Assembly: GCA_023055355.1 (NCBI GenBank)
Contig: JALJCS010000028.1
Span: 5,580,418 to 5,644,417 of the forward strand
Direction of reading: 5' to 3'
From: Agelaius tricolor
Lineage: Eukaryota; Chordata; Aves; Passeriformes; Icteridae
Length of the DNA: 64,000 nt
Shown here: positions 51,301 to 64,000 of the stretch, piece after piece
Numbering within the stretch: the first letter of the stretch is position 1
Layout: each line of letters opens with the position of its first letter
Notes under the pieces: generated by a model
The model's database searches: none
What the model was told of the DNA's origin: nothing
The model's input: the letters and a program-made list of their open reading frames with translations, nothing else
Made by a program: the position numbers and the translations under genes

Positions 51301-54300
51301 TGCTCCCATGGGAGCAGGGTGCCAGGCCTGAAGGGAGAAACTCTGCAGGGTCCCGCCAGGGGGACACGGTGCTCGGTGCTGTGCCAGCAGGCCCTGAGGG
51401 CGGCAACCTGGCTGCCTGGCCGGGGCTAGTGGCCACCCGTGTCCAGCACTATGACGCCTGGCTGCAGGACCGGCAAGGCTCTAGCAGGGCCAGGGGGCGA
51501 GAGGGCAACCAGGCACCTCTATGGAGGTCTCGGTCCCGACTCCCTTCCTGGGGACAGGCGGGTCCCAAGTGGCCCCGAGGCGATGGGGCTGGTGACAGCC
51601 GGGGCGTCTGGAGAAGCGGCAGCGCAGTGAGTAATGGCAAAGGTGCCCGGAGCAGCTCTTGCCGCCTGGCTCTGCGGACGTGGCGGGGTGTGGGGCCGTG
51701 CTGGCGGCGGTGGCAGCAGCATGCCGCTTCCCAGGGCTTGGTGGCCGGCAGGGAGCCCCGACCCTGCCCCGGTGAGGAGATGGCAGCGGCCGCATCCCAG
51801 CACAGCCCAGGGACACGCAGGGAGCAGCCGCTGCAGCGCTGCCCGGGGCGGCGGGAGCCGCTTGGCCGTGACCCAGCTCCTGCGACCAGCCGGGGGGCTT
51901 TGATCTCCGCCGGTGAATTGTTCAGCTCTGGTAGCTTATCTGCCGAGGAGGGAAATTAGGTTTTCGGCGCTGGCCCCACCTCCTTTTGTTTCGGAGGAGC
52001 TCGGCCACAGCCTGCCCGGCCCCGGCTCTGCGGTCCGAGCCGGGAGTGCGGCTGGACGGACGGCCCGGCCGGGGGCTGCGACCCTCGGGATGCCCTGAGC
52101 CCCCCCCGCTGCTGGGCCCGCTTGTCCATGGCCGGCCGGGCTTGGCCAGGCAGCACCCGGGGTCCTCCATCCCCGGGGCCCTGCACCCCCGGGATGCAGG
52201 TAGGCAGGTCAGTGCGGGCAGGGGAGCTTGGCCGGGGGACCCCACTGCCCGGGGTGTCCGTCTGTCCCACGGTGCTCAGGTCAGCCAGGCCGCTGTCCCC
52301 ATCCTGGCCGCAGCGCTGGGTACTGACCCTGGGGACACTGGCTGTCCTCACTGCAGGCTCCAGGACGGCGAAGGAAGAACATAACAGAGTTCCTGGGGGA
52401 CAGCAGCATCCCCAGCCCCGAGCCAGCCCTGCACAGCAGCAGCTCTCTGCCCACCAATGGCACTGACACCTGGAAGAACCGCGCTGCCAGCCGCTTCAGC
52501 GGCTTCTTTGGCTCCGGGACTAGCACGGGCTCCTTCGGGCGGGTAGGTGGGATGCAGGCACGGGGAGGGGTGTGGGGACTGCCTGTGGCTATGCTGGGCA
52601 CCTGGGATGGGTCCCCCTGTGGCTCAAGACCCTCGTTCCACAGGCAGGCTGAGGTGGTCCGTGGGACATGCCCAGTGGCCCCCGCCCAGCTTTGTCCCCT
52701 GCTTTTGTCCAGGAGACTGAGAAGCTGGAGCAGCTGGTGAACAGGCTGCACGCCTACAGCACCTTCGGGCTGCCCAAGCTGCCGCCCCAGCTCCGCTTTG
52801 ACCGCGACTCCTGGGAGGAGGATGGGGACGAGGCTGGGCTGACTCTGGAGGACAGCTGGCAGCAGATCATCCAGGGCACAGAGGTAGGGACAGTGCCTGG
52901 GGAGCCTCAGGGGCTGTGCCCAGGCCCTGGCACAGCGCTGACGCTCAGCCTGGCAGGTCCTGTCGCGCCGGCAGTGCCACCAGCAGGAAGCCATCTGGGA
53001 GCTGCTGCACACAGAGGCCACCTACATCCGGAACCTCAAAGTCATCACTGATGTGAGTGTTGGCAGCTACTGCACTGTGCTGGGGCTGGGGGCTGTGGCT
53101 GGGGGCTGTGGCTGCAGCTCACTGCCTCTCCATTCCCTCCCCACAGCTCTTTCTCTCCTGCCTGGTGAACCTGCAGGAGTCAGGGCTGCTCTGTGAGGTG
53201 AGTGGAGGGGGCTGCAGGGGACAGGGTGTTCAGGGATGGGTCCTCAGCCTCGCCATGCTGCAGGGTGGAGGTGCCATTCCCCAGTGGTGCCCACCTCACC
53301 CCCACAGGTGGATGCTGAGCGGCTCTTCAGCAACATCGGGGAGATCATCCGGCTGCACTGCAAGCTGTGGCGCAGCGTCATGGCCTCAGTGCTGGCCAAG
53401 GCACGGCGGACTGGGGCACTGCTGGACCCCATTGACTTCCTCGATGGCTTCAAGATGGTGAGTGGGGATGCCATGCCACAGCGGGCAGCCACGCCATGCC
53501 GTGTGCTGCATGGTGACTGCCTCGTGTCCCCCAGTTCGGGTCCCTCTTCAAGCCCTATGTGCGGTATTGCATGGAGGAGGAGGGCTGCATGGAGTACATG
53601 CGGACCCTGCTGCGGGACAGCGAGCTCTTCCGCACCTATGTGACGGTAAGGGGAGGCTGGGGCTGGGGCTGGGGCAGGGCTGGGGCTGGTGCTAATGCCT
53701 GGCTGCCGCAGTGGGCTGAGAAGCAGGAGCAGTGCAGCCGCCTGAAGCTGAGCGACATGCTGGTGAAACCTCACCAGCGCCTCACCAAGTACCCGCTGCT
53801 CCTCAAGTCTATCCTGAAGAAGACGGATGACCCACGTGCCCGTGATGCCATCACCACTATGGTAAGGGATCAGAGGTGGGGGGCAGCAGGGTTGGTGGCC
53901 CCTCAAACCCACCACCTCTCCTGGCACAGATCAGCTCCGTGGAACGCTTCATCAACGACGTCAACTCGCGGATGCGCCAGCGGCAGGAGCGGCAGCGCCT
54001 GGATGCCATCCTCAGCCGGATTGATGCCTATGAGGTGGTGGAGGGCAGCACAGACGAGGTGGACAAGGTAGGCTGGACATGGTGGAGCTGCCATCTCATG
54101 CCATGCCACTCAATGCCACCCTCTGCCACACTGCTGTGCCACCCTGTGTCACTTCATGCTATGCCACCCATGTCATGTTACCCCATGCACCCCATGCCGA
54201 CTCTGGGGGTTTCTGACAGCTGCTTAAGGAGTTCCTGAGGCTGGACCTGACAGCCCCCATCCCTGGCACCTCCCCGGAGGACACCCGGCAGCTCCTCCTC

Positions 54301-55974
54301 GAGGGCAGCCTGAGGATGCGGGAAGGTAAAGACAGCAAGGTGAGGACTGCAGGGGACAGGGAGGGCTCAGCTCCGGCCCCTGCCCACCCACCCTCACTCA
54401 CTGCACTGACTGGTGCCCATGGCTCCACTCTCACCCTCAGATGGACGTCTACTGCTTCCTCTTCACCGACCTCTTCCTCATCACCAAGCCCTTCAAGAAG
54501 GCTGAGCGCACCAAGGTGATCCGGCAGCCCTTGCTGGTGGACAGAGTTGTTTGCAGGGAGCTCAGAGACCCAGGTGAGAGCACTGGGCATAAGGGGGGCT
54601 ACTGGGAGGTCCCTGGACACTGCTGACAGCCCCTGCCCACAGGCTCCTTCCTCCTCATCTACCTGAACGAGCTGGGCAGTGCCGTGGCCGCCTACACCTT
54701 CCAGAGCAGTGGGCAGCTGTGCCGCAGCTGGGTCGAGGCAGTGCGCAATGCCCAGGTGAGGGCACACGGGTGGGTGGGGGACACGTGGGTTCCCTGTGCA
54801 CACCCCATTCCTCACTGACAACCCCCCCATCCCAGAACCTGCTGCAGAGGCTGCGGCAGCGCCGGCGCATGGAGGAGCAGGAGGAGGAGGACGAGGAGGA
54901 TGAGGAGGATGATGGTGAGAGTGGCACTTCAGCTGCCAGTTCACCTACCATCCTACACCACAGCAGCACCAGCCCGGACTCACAGCAGTGGTAGGGAGCA
55001 GGAGGGGGGACCTGCACACCCCCAGCCTGGCACAGGCCCCTCCTCACCTTCTTGCCTCCACAGCCCATCCGACGGCTCCACCGAGACGCTTGCCATGGTG
55101 GCAGCAGAGGGTGGCGACGAGCTCTCCTCCCCAGACTGGGACGCAGGACCCTTCGGCTCAACCTCGGATGGCTCCTCTGTTAGCACCAGCACCTCCATCG
55201 GCACTGGCACCTCTGTGGAGACCCCCACCTCCACCGATACCCCCACGCAGGAGCTGCCTGCAGGTGCCCTGCCTGTTCCCCTGCCCCACGGCGTGGCCTC
55301 CCCAGGCAGCGGCTGCCGCTCGTCCTCCATCGACAGCGCCTATGGCACGCTCTCACCTGCCTCCCTGCGGGACTTTGGCCAGCAGCCCGAGGGGACGGCC
55401 GAGGAGGGGCAGGAGCCTTCCCTGGCCCCTCCTGCCCCACGGCCGGGCTCGCCCCGGCTGCGCCGCCGGACGCCCGTGCAGCTCCTGCCTTGCCCGGCCA
55501 GGGTGCTCAAGTCCAAGTCGGAGGCCAGCTTGCCCCAGCTCCTGTCCCCCACTTCCCCAGGCCCCCTGAGCCAAAGCCGCAGCCTCTCTGACATCTGTGC
55601 TGGTTCCCCCCGGACTAGCCAAGAGCCCGCACCTCAGGCTGCCCCCGGCAGCAGCGGCAGCTCCACATCAGAGCTCTCAGAGCCAGAGGAGCCAGCGGAG
55701 AGCCCAGCATCCCTCCCAGGGGGGCTCAGGCGCGACCCCCAGCCCCCTGCCCGCCGGACCCTCTCGGACCCGCAGGCGGCGCAGCACCGCAAGCTGACTC
55801 TGGCGCAGCTGTACCGGATCCGGACCACGCTGCTGCTCAACTCCACGCTGACGGCCTCGTAAGCACAGGCTGCCTGCTCCTGGGGGTGCCCCAGCCCTTC
55901 CAGGGGCTTCCCAGGGACCGAGTCCCAGTGCTGAAGGCCTCTCTCCCCACTCTGTGTCTTGCAGGGAGGTCTGA
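45358..55974 (+). CDS. PLEKHG5: Pleckstrin homology domain-containing family G member 5 (Syx, RhoA GEF)
   Basis: PLEKHG5 is a Rho exchange factor of endothelial junctions and neurons, linked to autophagy of synaptic vesicles and to motor neuropathy in human. Exons: 45358-45490, 47244-47320, 49661-49790, 49969-50071, 50152-50212, 50318-50409, 50486-50622, 50699-50847, 52357-52542, 52713-52883, 52957-53052, 53147-53197, 53308-53457, 53535-53645, 53712-53861, 53930-54067, 54220-54339, 54441-54573, 54643-54755, 54836-54990, 55064-55858 and 55965-55974, together 1086 residues. A 44-residue leader is followed by a Cys/His-rich block, an acidic stretch, a ubiquitin-like/RBD-type region (about 170-250), the DH domain (about 420-645, [15 protein letters not shown] and [17 protein letters not shown]), the PH domain (about 660-765, [16 protein letters not shown]) and a Ser-rich tail. 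It ends TASEV, a PDZ ligand made by the last splice. Confidence 0.95.
46261..46344 (+). repeat. 12-bp tandem repeat in PLEKHG5 intron 1
   Basis: Six head-to-tail copies of CCGGCTCCCAAC, with C/T and A/G variants (46261-46332), plus a degenerate seventh copy. It translates as repeated Pro-Ala-Pro-Asn in one frame, but lies in an intron and shows no splice sites, so it is treated as a minisatellite. Confidence 0.9.
46666..46714 (+). repeat. 19-bp tandem repeat in PLEKHG5 intron 1
   Basis: Two perfect copies of AGCCGTGCCATTGTGGCAG (46666-46684 and 46685-46703) and an 11-bp partial third copy. Short and intronic; no function is evident. Confidence 0.9.
48230..48616 (-). mobile_element. Solo LTR of a passerine-type endogenous retrovirus in PLEKHG5 intron 2
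   Basis: An AT-rich 387-bp block in a GC-rich intron, flanked by a perfect 6-bp duplication GGTGTC (48224-48229 and 48617-48622). On the minus strand it starts TGTCACAGACAC and contains a canonical AATAAA within AAATAATAAATC, near CTTCTGAAACACGGAG. I recognise this LTR type from songbird genomes (CTGAGAAGCTGAGAGGCC, GGCCAATCACAGTCAGCT). No internal retroviral genes remain. The duplication length fits class II (ERVK-like) integration. Divergence from the remembered consensus is modest, which points to a rather recent insertion. Confidence 0.85.
50848..52356 (+). other. PLEKHG5: Long PLEKHG5 intron (1.5 kb)
   Basis: The exons on either side (ending GAESL and starting APGRRRKN) join in phase zero and match adjacent residues of the family, so no exon seems to be missing. 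Open frames inside are GC-driven and show no splice sites with coding similarity. Confidence 0.6.
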
Positions 55975-56570: not shown

Positions 56571-58588
56571 TCTGCCTCTCCTTTCCTTTGGCTTCAGCAG
56601 CACCCAAGGCTGGGCATCACCTGGGTGGGTGCAGCGTGGCTGAGAGAGCCCCCTCCGGGACAGACAAAAAGGGGATGGGACCAGTTCCAGCCTCCCGTTC
56701 TGGAGCTCGGGGTGGGGATGGAGCCCTGGGACGGGGATGCACTGCTCCCCACGTAGCCTGCGCGCCCTGCCACCCCCGCCACCCCCGCTAACGGGTGAGG
56801 GAGGGCGGCGGCCGGGTCTGCAGCGAGGCACTGCAGGTCCCTCCCGCGCCCAGCGCTCCCGTCATGTGGTTTCATACCCCCTGGACTCATTTCCAAAAAA
56901 GCATTTCCTCCTGCTGCGGTTGGGTGTAAAAGCCTGTCTGGGGAGGGCTGGCGCTCACTCACCACGCGTCGCGTGCTGCTGACGGCAGCCGTGGGGTGCC
57001 GGGGCACCCTGCCCGGGCACTGAGCTGCCCCGACACCCCCCTGCACCTGCGGCCCGCTCCCCTCAGCGCCCCGGCATGACCCAGCCGCATCGGCCACAAG
57101 GATGAAGTGTTGCTGCCCTGGGGTGGCTTGGGTGAGTGCGGTGGCCTGGGGGGTCCCACGGAGCGCTGGTACCAATTGTGGGGCGTCCCACGGCTGTGGC
57201 CGTAACGGGTCTGGAGGAGGGAGGGAGGAAGATGGATTCACTCCAGTGCCAAGCTCGCCAAAACCGCTTACACCGCTGGCTAACAGCCGGGGCTGGGCTC
57301 TGCTGCACCAAAACATTCGCGGTGTGGCGTGACCGCGGCGGGGGCCACCGGCCGTGAAGATCCCGGCCGCAGAGCGGATGCGGCCGTGGGAAGGGTGGGG
57401 TCAGTCCTGGGGCTGCAGGCAGGGCAGTGCCTGGGGAGTGGCTGTGCCCACAGAGCGCGGGCAGCTGCCCTCGGGGCTCGGGTGCCAACCCCGGCACCGA
57501 CAGCTGTTACGGGGGGCAGAGGCGGTGGCACGGCCCCAGCGGCGGTGGCGCTCCCCAGCGCGGAGCCAGCCCCGTGCCCACCGGGCACCTTCTCCCCGCG
57601 CTGGGCACAGGCAGTGCCCGTCTGCGGGCGGGGTGCGCGGGCAGGGCCCCGCTGGGGACGGTCGTGCCTCAGCGGTGACTCAGATGTGCCGCTGCCAGCC
57701 GGGACTGAGGCACCCGCCCGGATCTGCCGGCAGCGCTCTGCGAGCGGGGCGGCCCAGCGCGGTTTCCAGTCTGCCGGTGGCGGCGGGTTTAGTAGAAAAT
57801 GATTCAACTGCCGTAATCGGGGCCATCACGGCTGGGAAATCCAGCCCCCAGCGAGGAATCCCCTGGCTCCCTGCCCACACTGTCAGTGCCACGGCCCTCT
57901 CAGCCCCCGGCCCGGCCTGTGGAAGGGGTGTCAGCGTGGGCACCGCTGGCTGCACCCACCGGGGCTTCCAGGGGAGCAGGGCTGCCCTGCGGACAGCACC
58001 TGGCACCCCGCGGGGGAGCAGTGACCTACTTTGGGACGCGCGTAACGGGGAGCGATAGCATCGGGGAGAGCTGAGCCAGGCACGGCTTCCTTTCGGGGAG
58101 GAAATCACCTCCTCTGTGAGGGAGATAAACCCCAGGAAAGTCAAAGCTGGCAGCGTTAACCCCTACGCGCCCGGCTACCGACGCCTCCCTAAGCCAGCGA
58201 TCTCTGGCACCACCAGCAGTCCGTGTGCCTGACTTACTGGTCCCCATCCCTGGGGACATGGCAGGGTCCTGCTGGCACAGGCTATTGAGCATCTCGGTGC
58301 CGCTCCCCAGCCAGCATGGAAGCACCATTTGCAGAGCACACGGGGGCACCTTGGCAGCCCCATGGGCACAGGCTGTGGCACAGTGGCCCCCACAGTGCCA
58401 GCAGGAAGTTGCTTGCTCGTGTACTGCGGAGAAAGCAGAGCACAGGGGCTGCCGCGGGGCATTCCCAGCCCTGGGGCAGCACACCCACGCGGCTTTGGGG
58501 CGGAGGGCCGCGGCTTCAGCCGCTCAGCTTTGCGCAGGCACCGCTGTCCACACAGCTGCAGGTACGGCTCTGGCTCTGCTAGCCCAGC
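56571..58588. other. GC-rich interval between PLEKHG5 and TNFRSF25
   Basis: About 2 kb of GC-rich sequence with many overlapping open frames on both strands. None resembles a known protein and none has convincing exon borders. It probably holds the TNFRSF25 promoter and possibly an untranslated first exon. Confidence 0.5.
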
Positions 58589-60316
58589 ATGAGCAGGTGT
58601 GAGGGCTGTCCCCACGGGTGCGAGGCTGCTGGAGCAACCCGTCTGCCTGCAGCCCTGCTCTCTCCCTGCTTGCAGGTGACCTTGGCAGCGCTGTGGCTGG
58701 CAGCCAGCGAATCGCAGCCCCCAGGGTGGCGGGACCGCGACGTGCTGCAAAGGCAGCGGGTCCTGGTGCAGCCACTCCTCCGCCTGAGGAGACACACGGA
58801 CAGACGCCAGTGCCCTGACGGCACGCACTGGGTGGAGACTGTTCGTCAGTGCTGCCCTCAGTGTCCCGCAGGTGAGCGCTGCCCCGTCCGTGCGGCATGG
58901 CACAGCACACCGTGGCACAGCAGGTGCCTTGCTCCAGGCGGCCGTGCTCCCTGTCACCCCACTGTCCCTGCAGGGACATTCCTGAAAGACGCCTGCGTGT
59001 GCGACCCCTGTCCTGCCGGCACCTTCCGCACCCAGCCCAACACCTTCAGCGAGTGCCAGGCCTGCTACGAGTGTGACCAACACGGTGAGCTGGCACCACA
59101 CCACACCGTGCCGTGCTATGCAGTGCCGTGCTCAGCTGCTCACTGCCTGCTTTCTGCAGCTTTCCAGAGTGTGCTGAGCAACTGCTCAGCCACCAGCAAC
59201 ATCGCCTGTGGCTGTGAGCCCGGCCGATTCCGTGTCTGCCTTGACCCGCCGTGCACCGAATTCTCTTGCCAGAAGTGCCAGACCTGCACCGGACGCCTCA
59301 TCCAGCGACCCTGTGAGTGCTGCCAGCTGCCCCATGGCACAACCTGCCAGCTGTGCCACCTCTGGCTGTGCCACCCTGCCTCATTCCCACCCTCTCCCCA
59401 GGCTCAGAGGTGCAGGATGCCCTTTGTGACAGCAGCTGCAAGCCTGACTTCTACAGAGAGGGTGATGAATGCCGGCCGTGTCACATGTAAGCATTGACCC
59501 TCCTGCCAGGGATGCATGTGGGGCCCGTGGCATGGCACAGCACGGCACCCATGGGTCCCATCTCCTTGCAGGCGCACCGTGGACACGTGTGGCAAAGAAT
59601 GCCAGCAAGCGTGCGGCAGCAACAACAAAGGTATGGGGACAATGGGGCCAGGGTTGGTGGTGTGCAGTCGCTGTGCTGGCCAGCTGATGGCAATGCTCCT
59701 GCTCCTCCTTTCAGGCTCAGGTCTGGAGTACATCCTGCTGGGACTCACCGGGCCTCTCTTCCTGGGTGCCCTGGCCATCTACCACAAGAGGAAGAGGCTC
59801 CGGCATGGGGGTGGTCCCCACCCCATGGCACAGGCCGCCACCTCAATGCCCGGGGCTGCAACCACACCATTGTGCCAGTTCAGTGCCTGGAGGTGGCACA
59901 ACCCGTGCTGGACCCAGCCATACTTCCCCCAGGAGACAGAGCGTGGCACTGGCACAGCAAAGAAGAGTTTCAAACAGGAGGCCTTGCTGCGTGAGCCACC
60001 CAGCGAGGAAGGAAAGCCCTCTGCCCCCCCGGAGCCCCGTGGTGCCTTGCTGCAGGGCAGCCAGCTCTACGCCGTCATCGATGTGGTGCCAGTGCGGCGC
60101 TGGAAGGAGTTCATGAGGATGCTGGAGCTGCGGGAGGCAGAGATTGAGCTGGTAGAGCTGGAGGTGGTCCACATCCGTGACCAGCAGTACGAGATGCTGA
60201 AGCGCTGGTGCCAGCAGACCAGTGCCACGCTGGACCACGTCTTTGCTGCCCTGGAGCGCATGGAGCTGGCCGGCTGTGCTGAGGCACTGCGCCAGAGTCT
60301 GCCCGTGGGACCCTGA
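58589..60316 (+). CDS. TNFRSF25: TNF receptor superfamily member 25 (death receptor 3)
   Basis: TNFRSF25/DR3 is the TL1A receptor of T cells; it signals through TRADD to NF-kB or caspase-8. Exons: 58589-58871, 58974-59084, 59160-59312, 59402-59486, 59572-59630 and 59715-60316, giving 430 residues (human 417). Cys-rich TNFR repeats run from CPDGTHWVETVRQCCPQCPAG through VCDPCPAGTF, ACYECDQH, CSATSNIACGCEPG to CKPDFYREGDECRPC. A membrane segment (YILLGLTGPLFLGALAIYH, about 236-253) precedes a basic stop-transfer KRKRLR. The death domain (about 345-428) includes VRRWKEFMRML, LREAEIELVELE and RDQQYEMLKRW. The first exon is the weak point: ATG 58589 reads in frame through a CTTGCAG acceptor at 58677, so the real start may lie in an upstream exon. 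The membrane, linker and death-domain parts lie in one exon here. Confidence 0.92.
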
Positions 60317-61296: not shown

Positions 61297-64000
61297 CTAG
61301 TGCTTGGCTATGTCCCCCTTCTTGAGGATGATCTGTCGCTGCCAGGGCGCCAGCTTTGTCTCATCGTACCCGAGAGTCCTTAGCTTTTCCGACTGCTCCT
61401 TCTCCTTCTCCTCCTCCTCTCGCTTCAGCTTCTCCTGCTCTTTCCTGCTTAGCAGCAGAGGGCACAGGGCGCCGCGGTCACCAGAGCCGCGGGAGCCGCC
61501 GTGCCCGCCCACCCAGGGAAGGGGCTTGCTGCACTCACCGTTTCTGCTCCCTGCGAAGGCAAAGGGAACAGTGGGGTTAGTAGAGCCGCGGGAGTCACCG
61601 GCTGTTGCGGCATCCCCCGACCCTGGCTCACCTCTCTTCCTCCAGCTTCTTGCGCAGGATGTCCCTCCTCCAGGCCGGCATGCTGGCCAGGCGCGCCTCC
61701 TCTTCCTTCTCCTGCAACAGACAGCCGAGTTACCGGCACTGCCCGCCCTCACTGCCGGCACCGTGGGGCCGCAGCATCATCCTGGTGCGCGGCACCACAT
61801 CCTTCTGGCAGCGCCCTCCGTGGCACGGTACCGGTGGCGTTCACCGGCGCACGGCTCTCAGACGCGGCCCTCGGTGCCCACCTTCCGCCGGCGCCGGGAG
61901 GAGGAAGGAGCGCGTGGCGTGGCCAGCCCTTGCAGCACACCACAGCTTTATTGCACGACACGCGGGGGCCCACACTGCCCCGGCACCGCAAACGCCACAC
62001 CAGAGGGGAGCGCAGCCCCGCCGCTGCGCCTCCCACACAACACACAGCCACGGCAAGCGGCACACACGGCAACCTCGGCCCGGGGCCGCAGAACAGCGCC
62101 CAGCCTTCTGCCAAGCTCAGCTGCACCACGAGCCACAGAGGCCGGCGAGCGCACCCGGGCACCAGCCCACAGCTGTCCCCTGAGCTTGCTGCTGCCCCAT
62201 GCCACACCACTGGCACAGCCTGCAGCATCCCGTTGGACTCAAGTGTCGAACATCTCTGCCTCCTTCTCCTTCCAGAAGGAGAAGCTGCGGTCAATGAAGC
62301 GGCAGACGTCCTCCTCGCTGAACTCTCCCAGCTCCGGTACTGGCACTGCTGCCCCCTGCCCTTCCGAGGTCATGGTGGGGGCCTCTGCCAGGCTCTCTAC
62401 CACTGCCACGGGGTCATCCCCAAAAAACTCCTGCACGAGGTCCTCAAAGCCGTCAAGCCAGTGGCGGTGGCCAGCCTCGACCTGCTCCAGCACGGTGCGG
62501 TGGAAACGGCGGACGCGGTGCCAGCTGTGGCTGCCCAGGCGGTCAAACATCTCGTAGCAGAGGAGGTGGCGGAAGCGCCGCTCCTCGGGGCTGAGGGGCA
62601 TCTCCAGCAGCTGGAAGTAACCCAGCATGAAGAGGTCGAGCGGGAGGCTGTCGTGGGGCATGGGCGAGCCGCCGACGTAGGGCAGGAAGTGTTGGGGCCA
62701 GTACAGCACCGTGGTGCGGCTCAGCCGCCGGATCTGACGCCCTGGGACCCGGCGGGCAACACTCCTCCAGCGGGCAAGCAGCCGCCCCGCTGCCGGTCGC
62801 CGCCTCCCCGGCCGCCGTGGCCGCTCCTCCCCGGGCACTGCCGAGAGTGCCCGCTTCTTCCAGTGCTCCAGGAAGAGGAAGACTGTGCGCTCCTTGCACC
62901 CCTTGGTGCGTTCATGTGGGCTGCTCGGCTCTGGCAGCGCTGGCCTGCTCCTCCGCAGCGCCCCATCCCCGTATTCCTCCTCCAGGATGGGCCGGCGGGT
63001 GCTACCAGGGGGCTGCACCCGCTTGCGCTTAGTGACCCTGGGGGAAGGCGCGGGGGGTCCCCCTGGCCCCTCGTAGTTGGCCTTGAGGCTGCGGACAGAC
63101 ACACCGCAGCCCAGGATCTCGCTGCGGGCGTCGTGCTGGGCACCGGGGCCGCCCCCTGCTCCCCCCGCCCCAGGGCCCTCCCGGCCCCTCAGGGTGGCCG
63201 GCGGTGCGGCCGCGCTCCTCGGCAGCGGGGGGCACTGGCTGCCGCGGGCAGGCGCGTCCTGGTGGGCGAGGGCGAAGCGCCGGGGTGCCGGGGGGGCGGA
63301 GAGCGGCACGAGTGGCAGCAGCTCCTCCTCCGGCCCCCCTGGAAGCGGCTGCCCCGCCTCGTGCATCACCCGCAGGCTCCCCAGCTGCCTCTCCAGGTGC
63401 TGCACGTCCTCCTCCCGCATCGGCTGCCCGGCGGGTCCCGGTACGCCCCCGCGGGCAGGCGGCCCGCGCCGGCACAGGGGCGGCGAGCGGCTCCCAGGCT
63501 GCGGCGGGAGAGAGGGCAAAGGGGCTCTTGAGGCCATGCCGCACGCCCCCCGTGCCACTGCCGCCGTGTGTGGCATCCCCGGGGTGTGACACCCCTGCAT
63601 GCAGGTAGGGTGGTCCCCCAGCCCAATTAGGAGCCAGAGGCAATGCCACGCACGCCGTTTCGCCAGGTCCTGAGCTGCTTGGGCCGTGCCCGCGCCGCGC
63701 TCGCCGCCGCAGCACGAGGGACCCCCCCCCCTACCTTGCGCCGCTGCTCCTCTTCCTCCTGCATGCGGAGCTGCAGCTTGCGAACCATCACCTGCCGCTT
63801 CCACTCGGGGATGGGCCGGCCGTGCTCGTCCTGGCTGGGAACCAGCGCCTCCACCTCCGCCGCTGCCCCAGCGCCTGCTGCCGGCACCGGTGAGCTCCCG
63901 TTCAGCACCGGCTCCGGAGAGCCCCCTGCCAGGCAGCGTGGCGGCCCAGCAGCCTCGGGGGTGGCCGGCGGGGTGGGCGTCCTGGTGGGTGACGGGGAGG
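61297..64000 (-). CDS. ESPN: Espin, 3' part (actin-bundling C-terminus)
   Basis: Espin bundles actin in hair-cell stereocilia and microvilli; its loss causes deafness in mouse and human. Minus-strand exons for the classic form: at least 64000-63735 (open to the window edge, Pro/Ser/Thr-rich, then [20 protein letters not shown] and EEEEQRRK), 61711-61632 ([19 protein letters not shown]), the 12-nt microexon 61550-61539 (completes REQKR) and 61444-61297 (ending [28 protein letters not shown]). These make up the C-terminal actin-bundling module as known from mammalian espin, which ends in Tyr rather than His. Phases are 0, 2 and 2, all consistent. The ankyrin repeats and most of the proline-rich part are outside the window. 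The gene converges on TNFRSF25, as in human. See the separate entry for the alternative terminal exon in the large intron. Confidence 0.93.
62239..63498 (-). CDS. ESPN: Alternative 3' terminal exon of ESPN coding an espin-like (ESPNL)-type tail
   Basis: This is a 1260-bp minus-strand open exon inside the intron that separates the IPEWKRQ exon from the actin-bundling exons. It follows a strong acceptor (TTTGCCCTCTCTCCCGCCGCAG, split here as positions 63520-63499), starts in phase 0 exactly as the exon at 61711 does, and ends with TGA at 62239-62241. It encodes 419 residues: a linker with [20 protein letters not shown], a basic segment ([16 protein letters not shown]), then a compact conserved-looking region ([64 protein letters not shown]) and an end of [13 protein letters not shown] recall these blocks from the C-terminus of the paralogue ESPNL. 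Two readings are possible: a true alternative end of ESPN, or a relic. The long open frame argues against a relic. Confidence 0.72.
   Translation of the reverse strand, partial: PGSRSPPLCRRGPPARGGVPGPAGQPMREEDVQHLERQLGSLRVMHEAGQPLPGGPEEELLPLVPLSAPPAPRRFALAHQDAPARGSQCPPLPRSAAAPPATLRGREGPGAGGAGGGPGAQHDARSEILGCGVSVRSLKANYEGPGGPPAPSPRVTKRKRVQPPGSTRRPILEEEYGDGALRRSRPALPEPSSPHERTKGCKERTVFLFLEHWKKRALSAVPGEERPRRPGRRRPAAGRLLARWRSVARRVPGRQIRRLSRTTVLYWPQHFLPYVGGSPMPHDSLPLDLFMLGYFQLLEMPLSPEERRFRHLLCYEMFDRLGSHSWHRVRRFHRTVLEQVEAGHRHWLDGFEDLVQEFFGDDPVAVVESLAEAPTMTSEGQGAAVPVPELGEFSEEDVCRFIDRSFSFWKEKEAEMFDT

Follow-up and report, generated by a model that had tools for sequence, protein, structure and literature searches.

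An ESPNL-type terminal exon within the espin gene of a songbird, probably an alternative last exon shared among jawed vertebrates

We analyzed a window of 64,000 nucleotides from Agelaius tricolor (contig JALJCS010000028.1, positions 5,580,418 to 5,644,417 of the forward strand). The end of the window carries exons of the espin gene, ESPN, on the minus strand (Table 1). On the plus strand we found a convergent gene at 58583-60316, whose product has a death domain (PF00531, E 5.2e-16) and stretches rich in cysteine. It is probably TNFRSF25, which would fit the synteny of ESPN. Exons of a Rho exchange factor lie at about 52653-55862 on the same strand. They encode a RhoGEF domain (PF00621, E 5.4e-16), with PH_5 detected only at E 0.085, and presumably belong to PLEKHG5.

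A long terminal coding exon, further called the tail and encoding a C-terminal domain (CTD) of ESPNL type, is located in ESPN between the exon of the common actin-binding region and those of the actin-bundling module (ABM). The preliminary description had reported here an exon of 419 codons with an in-phase acceptor and a stop, and its coordinates were confirmed exactly: the codons occupy 63498-62242, TGA lies at 62241-62239 and the acceptor, CTCTCTCCCGCCGCAG/CCTGGG, at 63499/63498. The peptide of the shared exon ends in EEEEQRRK and is followed directly after 63735 by the donor AAG/GTAGGG (GT at 63734-63733). The same donor serves the ABM side, where the acceptor CTGTTGCAG/GAGAAGGAA is found 2,023 nt downstream, at 61712/61711. 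Both exons are entered at phase 0. The tail thus lies in phase within an ESPN intron, and the acceptors 63498 and 61711 offer two downstream choices for donor 63735, as had been described. When the ESPN frame was continued into the intron ahead of the tail, it met a stop after 35 codons. Since the 236 nt of this intron are also not a multiple of three, an in-frame fusion of ESPN and the tail is possible only by splicing. An AATAAA signal, which the preliminary description does not mention, sits 286 nt past the tail stop and a GT-rich stretch follows it. The in-phase acceptors, the tail's own stop and a poly(A) signal upstream of the ABM exon together form the arrangement expected of an alternative last exon. 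The window tail is not a separate locus with its own ankyrin exons; it is embedded within ESPN.

Table 1. Features of the ESPN locus in the window, in the order of transcription. Positions are those of the window.
Feature	Position	Strand	Remarks
Shared ESPN exon (part), common to both endings	63735..64000	-	5' limit at or beyond the window edge
Intron ahead of the tail exon	63499..63734	-	Length 236 nt, not divisible by 3
ESPNL-type terminal coding exon (espin CTD tail)	62239..63498	-	419 codons and TGA
Most conserved tail core, residues 247-364	62407..62760	-	From identity across vertebrates
Conserved tail end, residues 387-419	62242..62340	-	28/33 identical to turtle, 22/33 to catshark
AATAAA poly(A) signal	61947..61952	-	Between tail stop and ABM exon; followed by GCTGTGGTGTGCTGC
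ABM exon 1, alternative downstream choice	61632..61711	-	
ABM microexon	61539..61550	-	12 nt, GGAGCAGAAACG, encodes EQKR; in-phase donors and acceptors on either side; eagle protein P0021 has EQKR in order
Final ABM exon	61297..61444	-	Stop at 61299-61297

Chance produced AATAAA in the same stretch in 28 of 20,000 letter shuffles and in 3 of 5,000 first-order Markov sequences. The openness of the tail exon is by itself weak evidence, because the DNA is 72% GC and an open frame of 692 codons runs antisense over the same place (61453-63531, plus strand), probably because the codons on the opposite strand are rich in GC. It is protein homology that lifts the tail exon above chance.

We searched with the 419 residues and obtained 316 proteins at E<=1e-3 (best 9.9e-261), of which 120 were listed. 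No Pfam domain was found in the tail at E<=1. Among the 120 matches listed, NCBI annotates the tail as a separate 'espin-like protein' in at least 18 named birds, and the bald eagle and godwit models assign it to espin. A longer query gave 556 matches, again with 120 listed, in which the tail closes proteins that are 791-1,598 residues long (median 1,340). Many of these 120 proteins bear the name 'espin' or 'espin isoform X'. The animals represented are sharks, rays, a chimaera and ray-finned fish, frogs, tuatara, crocodile, snakes and a duck, marsupials including opossum, and many placentals, gorilla and chimpanzee among them. The 120 matches listed do not include human ESPN. Ankyrin Pfam domains were present in 100 of the 120, the shared-exon motif P[EQ]WKR[QH] precedes the tail in 119, and the complete CTD end terminates 113. 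As far as gene models go, the isoform is already present in the automatic annotation. These models are predictions, and one can propagate to the next by homology.

The taxonomic spread bears on several earlier claims. Mammalian ESPN had been said to possess only the bundling end; the long-tail espin models of marsupials and placentals speak against this. Retention of a second ending by birds only is ruled out by the models of sharks, rays, ray-finned fish, frogs, reptiles and mammals. The proposed link to hair-cell regeneration found no support, since the exon is present in mammals too.

The separate bird annotations could mean that the ESPN intron harbors a small separate gene, in which the tail has its own promoter and an internal start, e.g. 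Met27, and encodes a CTD protein without ankyrins. Standalone models of about 540-730 aa, listed for lizards, turtles, frogs, sharks, fish and marsupials, would fit such a gene, and Met27 (MREED; MTEDD elsewhere) is nearly invariant in the alignment. However, the starts of the standalone models are scattered, within the intron or inside the exon, while ESPN and the tail are joined at one place: of the 118 listed models that have the motifs of both, 113 have them spaced by 47 or 49 residues. The tail acceptor is also in phase with ESPN. We therefore regard a nested gene as unlikely. The better reading is that ESPN has in the tail an alternative last exon, the orthologue of the ESPNL-type CTD exon found in ESPN models across jawed vertebrates, and we hold this to be probable. 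In one bird (P0005, 665 aa) no stop interrupts the frame between the WH2 exon and the tail, across two introns; in that species a transcript retaining these introns could also read into the tail.

Further, we asked how often both endings occur in one protein, counting gene models and not transcripts. ABM motifs were found in 5 of the 120 listed long-tail proteins (of 556), and none of these five has a complete CTD end. A CTD end together with ABM motifs was seen in 0/120 listed long-tail proteins, 0/120 listed proteins of the ESPNL search described below and 1/120 listed proteins of the tail search. The lone exception, eagle P0021, joins an almost complete CTD to ABM and counts against strict exclusion of the two ends. 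The espin models P0132, P0155, P0162, P0189, P0206 and P0021 combine ABM with some or nearly all of the tail; they are possibly model errors, or possibly reflect genuine internal splicing within the tail exon.

A search with mouse ESPNL peptides taken from PMC4773517 returned 538 proteins; the 120 listed were mostly named ESPNL and came from placental and marsupial mammals. None of these 120 carries ABM motifs, which agrees with the earlier statement that ESPNL keeps the long end only. The resemblance of the tail to ESPNL, also noted before, was borne out by BLASTP, in which all seven ESPNL proteins tested matched the window tail with 191-236 bits. An alignment of 63 sequences, seven of them ESPNL, has 52 invariant columns in residues 190-419. 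BLASTP scores against the window tail fail to separate ESPN (squirrel and alpaca, 213 bits) from ESPNL (marsupials, 227-236 bits), and the evidence here is therefore the tree. It was built from 52 rows, namely 51 proteins chosen from 360 and the window, after removal of columns filled in less than half of the rows (549 of 1729 columns kept). Five marsupial ESPNL rows were full-length, as they have no GPFG cut motif, and two ray-finned fish rows retain ABM residues.

The tree separated 39 ESPN-type rows, including the window, from 13 ESPNL rows, all of them mammalian, with support 100/100. On the ESPN side the window was placed with songbirds, then other Neoaves, quail and duck, and crocodile and turtle. 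In the four species checked, the ESPN tail and ESPNL lie on contigs that differ in length (Macrotis P0059/P0352, Sciurus P0188/P0323, Equus caballus P0194/P0272, Pan paniscus P0238/P0305). The likeness of the tail to ESPNL, and nothing else, could point to an ESPNL tail copied recently into ESPN in birds. The tree, with ESPNL sampled from mammals only, rejects such a copy, as the window tail falls on the ESPN-type side beside the tails of crocodile and turtle; tail-bearing ESPN models in fish, frogs, reptiles and mammals likewise speak against it. We give it almost no credence.

Three constrained topologies, in which ESPNL joined mammalian ESPN, the cartilaginous fish, or the cartilaginous and ray-finned fish together, were not rejected (p-AU 0.553, 0.331 and 0.479, respectively). 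It is parsimony, and not the tree, that speaks for an ancestral gene with both ends: ESPN shows both ends and ESPNL the CTD only, and ABM has reportedly been compared with the fly protein forked, with which it is said to be homologous. The best reading is that the tail is an old second ending of ESPN and that ESPNL kept only the long end. A motif of ESPNL is dated to Gnathostomata in the passages available from PMC13364712.

We also compared the state of the tail among vertebrates. Identity to the window over the 118 residues of the core was 117 in Lonchura, 108 in vulture, 107 in woodpecker and 105 in macaw, and, beyond Neoaves, 96 in quail, 85 in turtle and 76 in catshark. In five other Neoaves, the core was identical at 105-117 of 118 positions and residues 365-386 at only 10-18 of 22. 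The last 33 residues are identical at 29-33 positions among songbird, vulture, woodpecker and macaw. AlphaFold2 predicted helices, with confidence mostly >90 from about residue 300 and a confident core; no solved fold matching the model of the tail was found.

The songbird tail is about 150 residues shorter than that of turtle, with in-frame losses compared with turtle, quail and duck. The LE codons at the exon start of duck are gone, and the proteins alone suggest that the acceptor has moved by six bases. Residues 67-124 correspond to a region that is helical in others (LPAWCSK..LLKSMA..LLA) and is poorly conserved in the window. With this shortening and this poor conservation, the tail could be losing function in songbirds. 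Branches in the tree are long (bird stem 0.78, Neoaves stem 0.85); judged from the compared proteins, the exon is evolving fast on bird branches, and the core looks constrained.

The long branches, the shortened tail and the decay of residues 1-124 might mean that the exon is an old ESPN ending abandoned by Neoaves and open by chance, long open frames being cheap in this GC-rich stretch. A relic of this kind is hard to reconcile with the near identity of the core and of the end across songbird, vulture, woodpecker and macaw, or with an acceptor, stop and poly(A) signal that are all intact, and we consider it quite improbable. Our preferred reading remains an alternative last exon.

In such an exon, use of acceptor 63498 and cutting of the RNA after AATAAA (61952-61947) would give an espin ending in CTD. 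This product would contain ankyrins, proline-rich stretches, WH2 and the common actin-binding region, followed by the CTD. Skipping of the tail exon would join donor 63735 to 61711 and give ordinary bundling espin ending in ABM. The locus would thereby switch between bundling espin and a non-bundling, ESPNL-like espin. Both the splicing choice and the early polyadenylation are suggested by the anatomy of the locus. Through its ankyrin repeats, CTD espin would still be carried by myosin III, and at the tips of protrusions it could dilute bundling espin or compete with it. By analogy with published work on ESPNL, the CTD form may be a cargo without bundling activity that adjusts the length of protrusions. 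According to the passages available from PMC4773517, full-length ESPNL is found with MYO3A or MYO3B at filopodia tips, localizes with actin, induces no filopodia and antagonizes the lengthening driven by ESPN-1.

All espin isoforms are said to share ABM, in the parts available of PMC3953818, PMC6493769 and PMC10046292, and no description of an espin lacking ABM was found in the available text of the open-access literature searched. The excerpts from PMC3953818 further report that an antibody against large espin isoforms gave no stereocilia label in the utricle of homozygous jerker mice, and that blots of mouse utricle showed known espin size classes only. The jerker frameshift lies in ABM and should spare a CTD form; going by those excerpts, the lack of label would mean that this form is absent, scarce or off stereocilia in mouse utricle. 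As excerpted, the antibody result argues against an abundant CTD form in that tissue. A PacBio table of human retina (PMC11450717) lists, in the portion available, a 6,326-nt transcript of ESPN (TRANSCRIPT3910.CHR1.NIC) in the category 'novel in catalogue' and with an alternative poly(A) site, at relative abundance 1.00 with 565 full-length reads; its exon structure is not given there, and the text of the paper gives no account of it. To judge from these entries, a transcript with the CTD ending could look like this one.

With some hesitation, we lean to the broader view that ESPN of jawed vertebrates makes two kinds of espin by the choice of last exon, one bundling (ABM) and one non-bundling and ESPNL-like (CTD). 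The rule that all isoforms share ABM would then be wrong, mutant alleles affecting ABM only would spare the CTD class, and the CTD form could be the main espin of some tissues, perhaps of retina. This would matter because espin is a deafness gene that has been treated as a pure actin bundler. If true, one gene supplies both an elongating and a non-bundling cargo of myosin III, and antibodies, alleles and variant screens directed at ABM miss one class of products. Mouse jerker and zebrafish espin icm26 (a 5-bp deletion at the first codon of ABM) would leave the CTD class intact. The origin of ESPNL also becomes testable, as a paralogue retaining only the CTD ending.

In comparison with known systems, the espins 1-4 of published papers come from the same gene and have the same upstream domains as the window locus. 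The long-tail espin models, such as Xenopus tropicalis XP_012822811.1 ('espin isoform X1', P0126), crocodile P0122, duck P0226 and gorilla P0236, resemble the window in the shared exon, the phase of the join and the tail. The window tail differs from them in its poorly conserved residues 67-124, in having 419 residues where turtle and crocodile have about 570, and in starting two codons (LE) later than that of duck. ESPNL of human, mouse and other mammals has a CTD homologous to the window tail and a common actin-binding segment homologous to that of ESPN, and lacks ABM. Unlike the ESPN tail, mammalian ESPNL is a separate gene, on other contigs in the four species checked, and occupies its own side of the tree.
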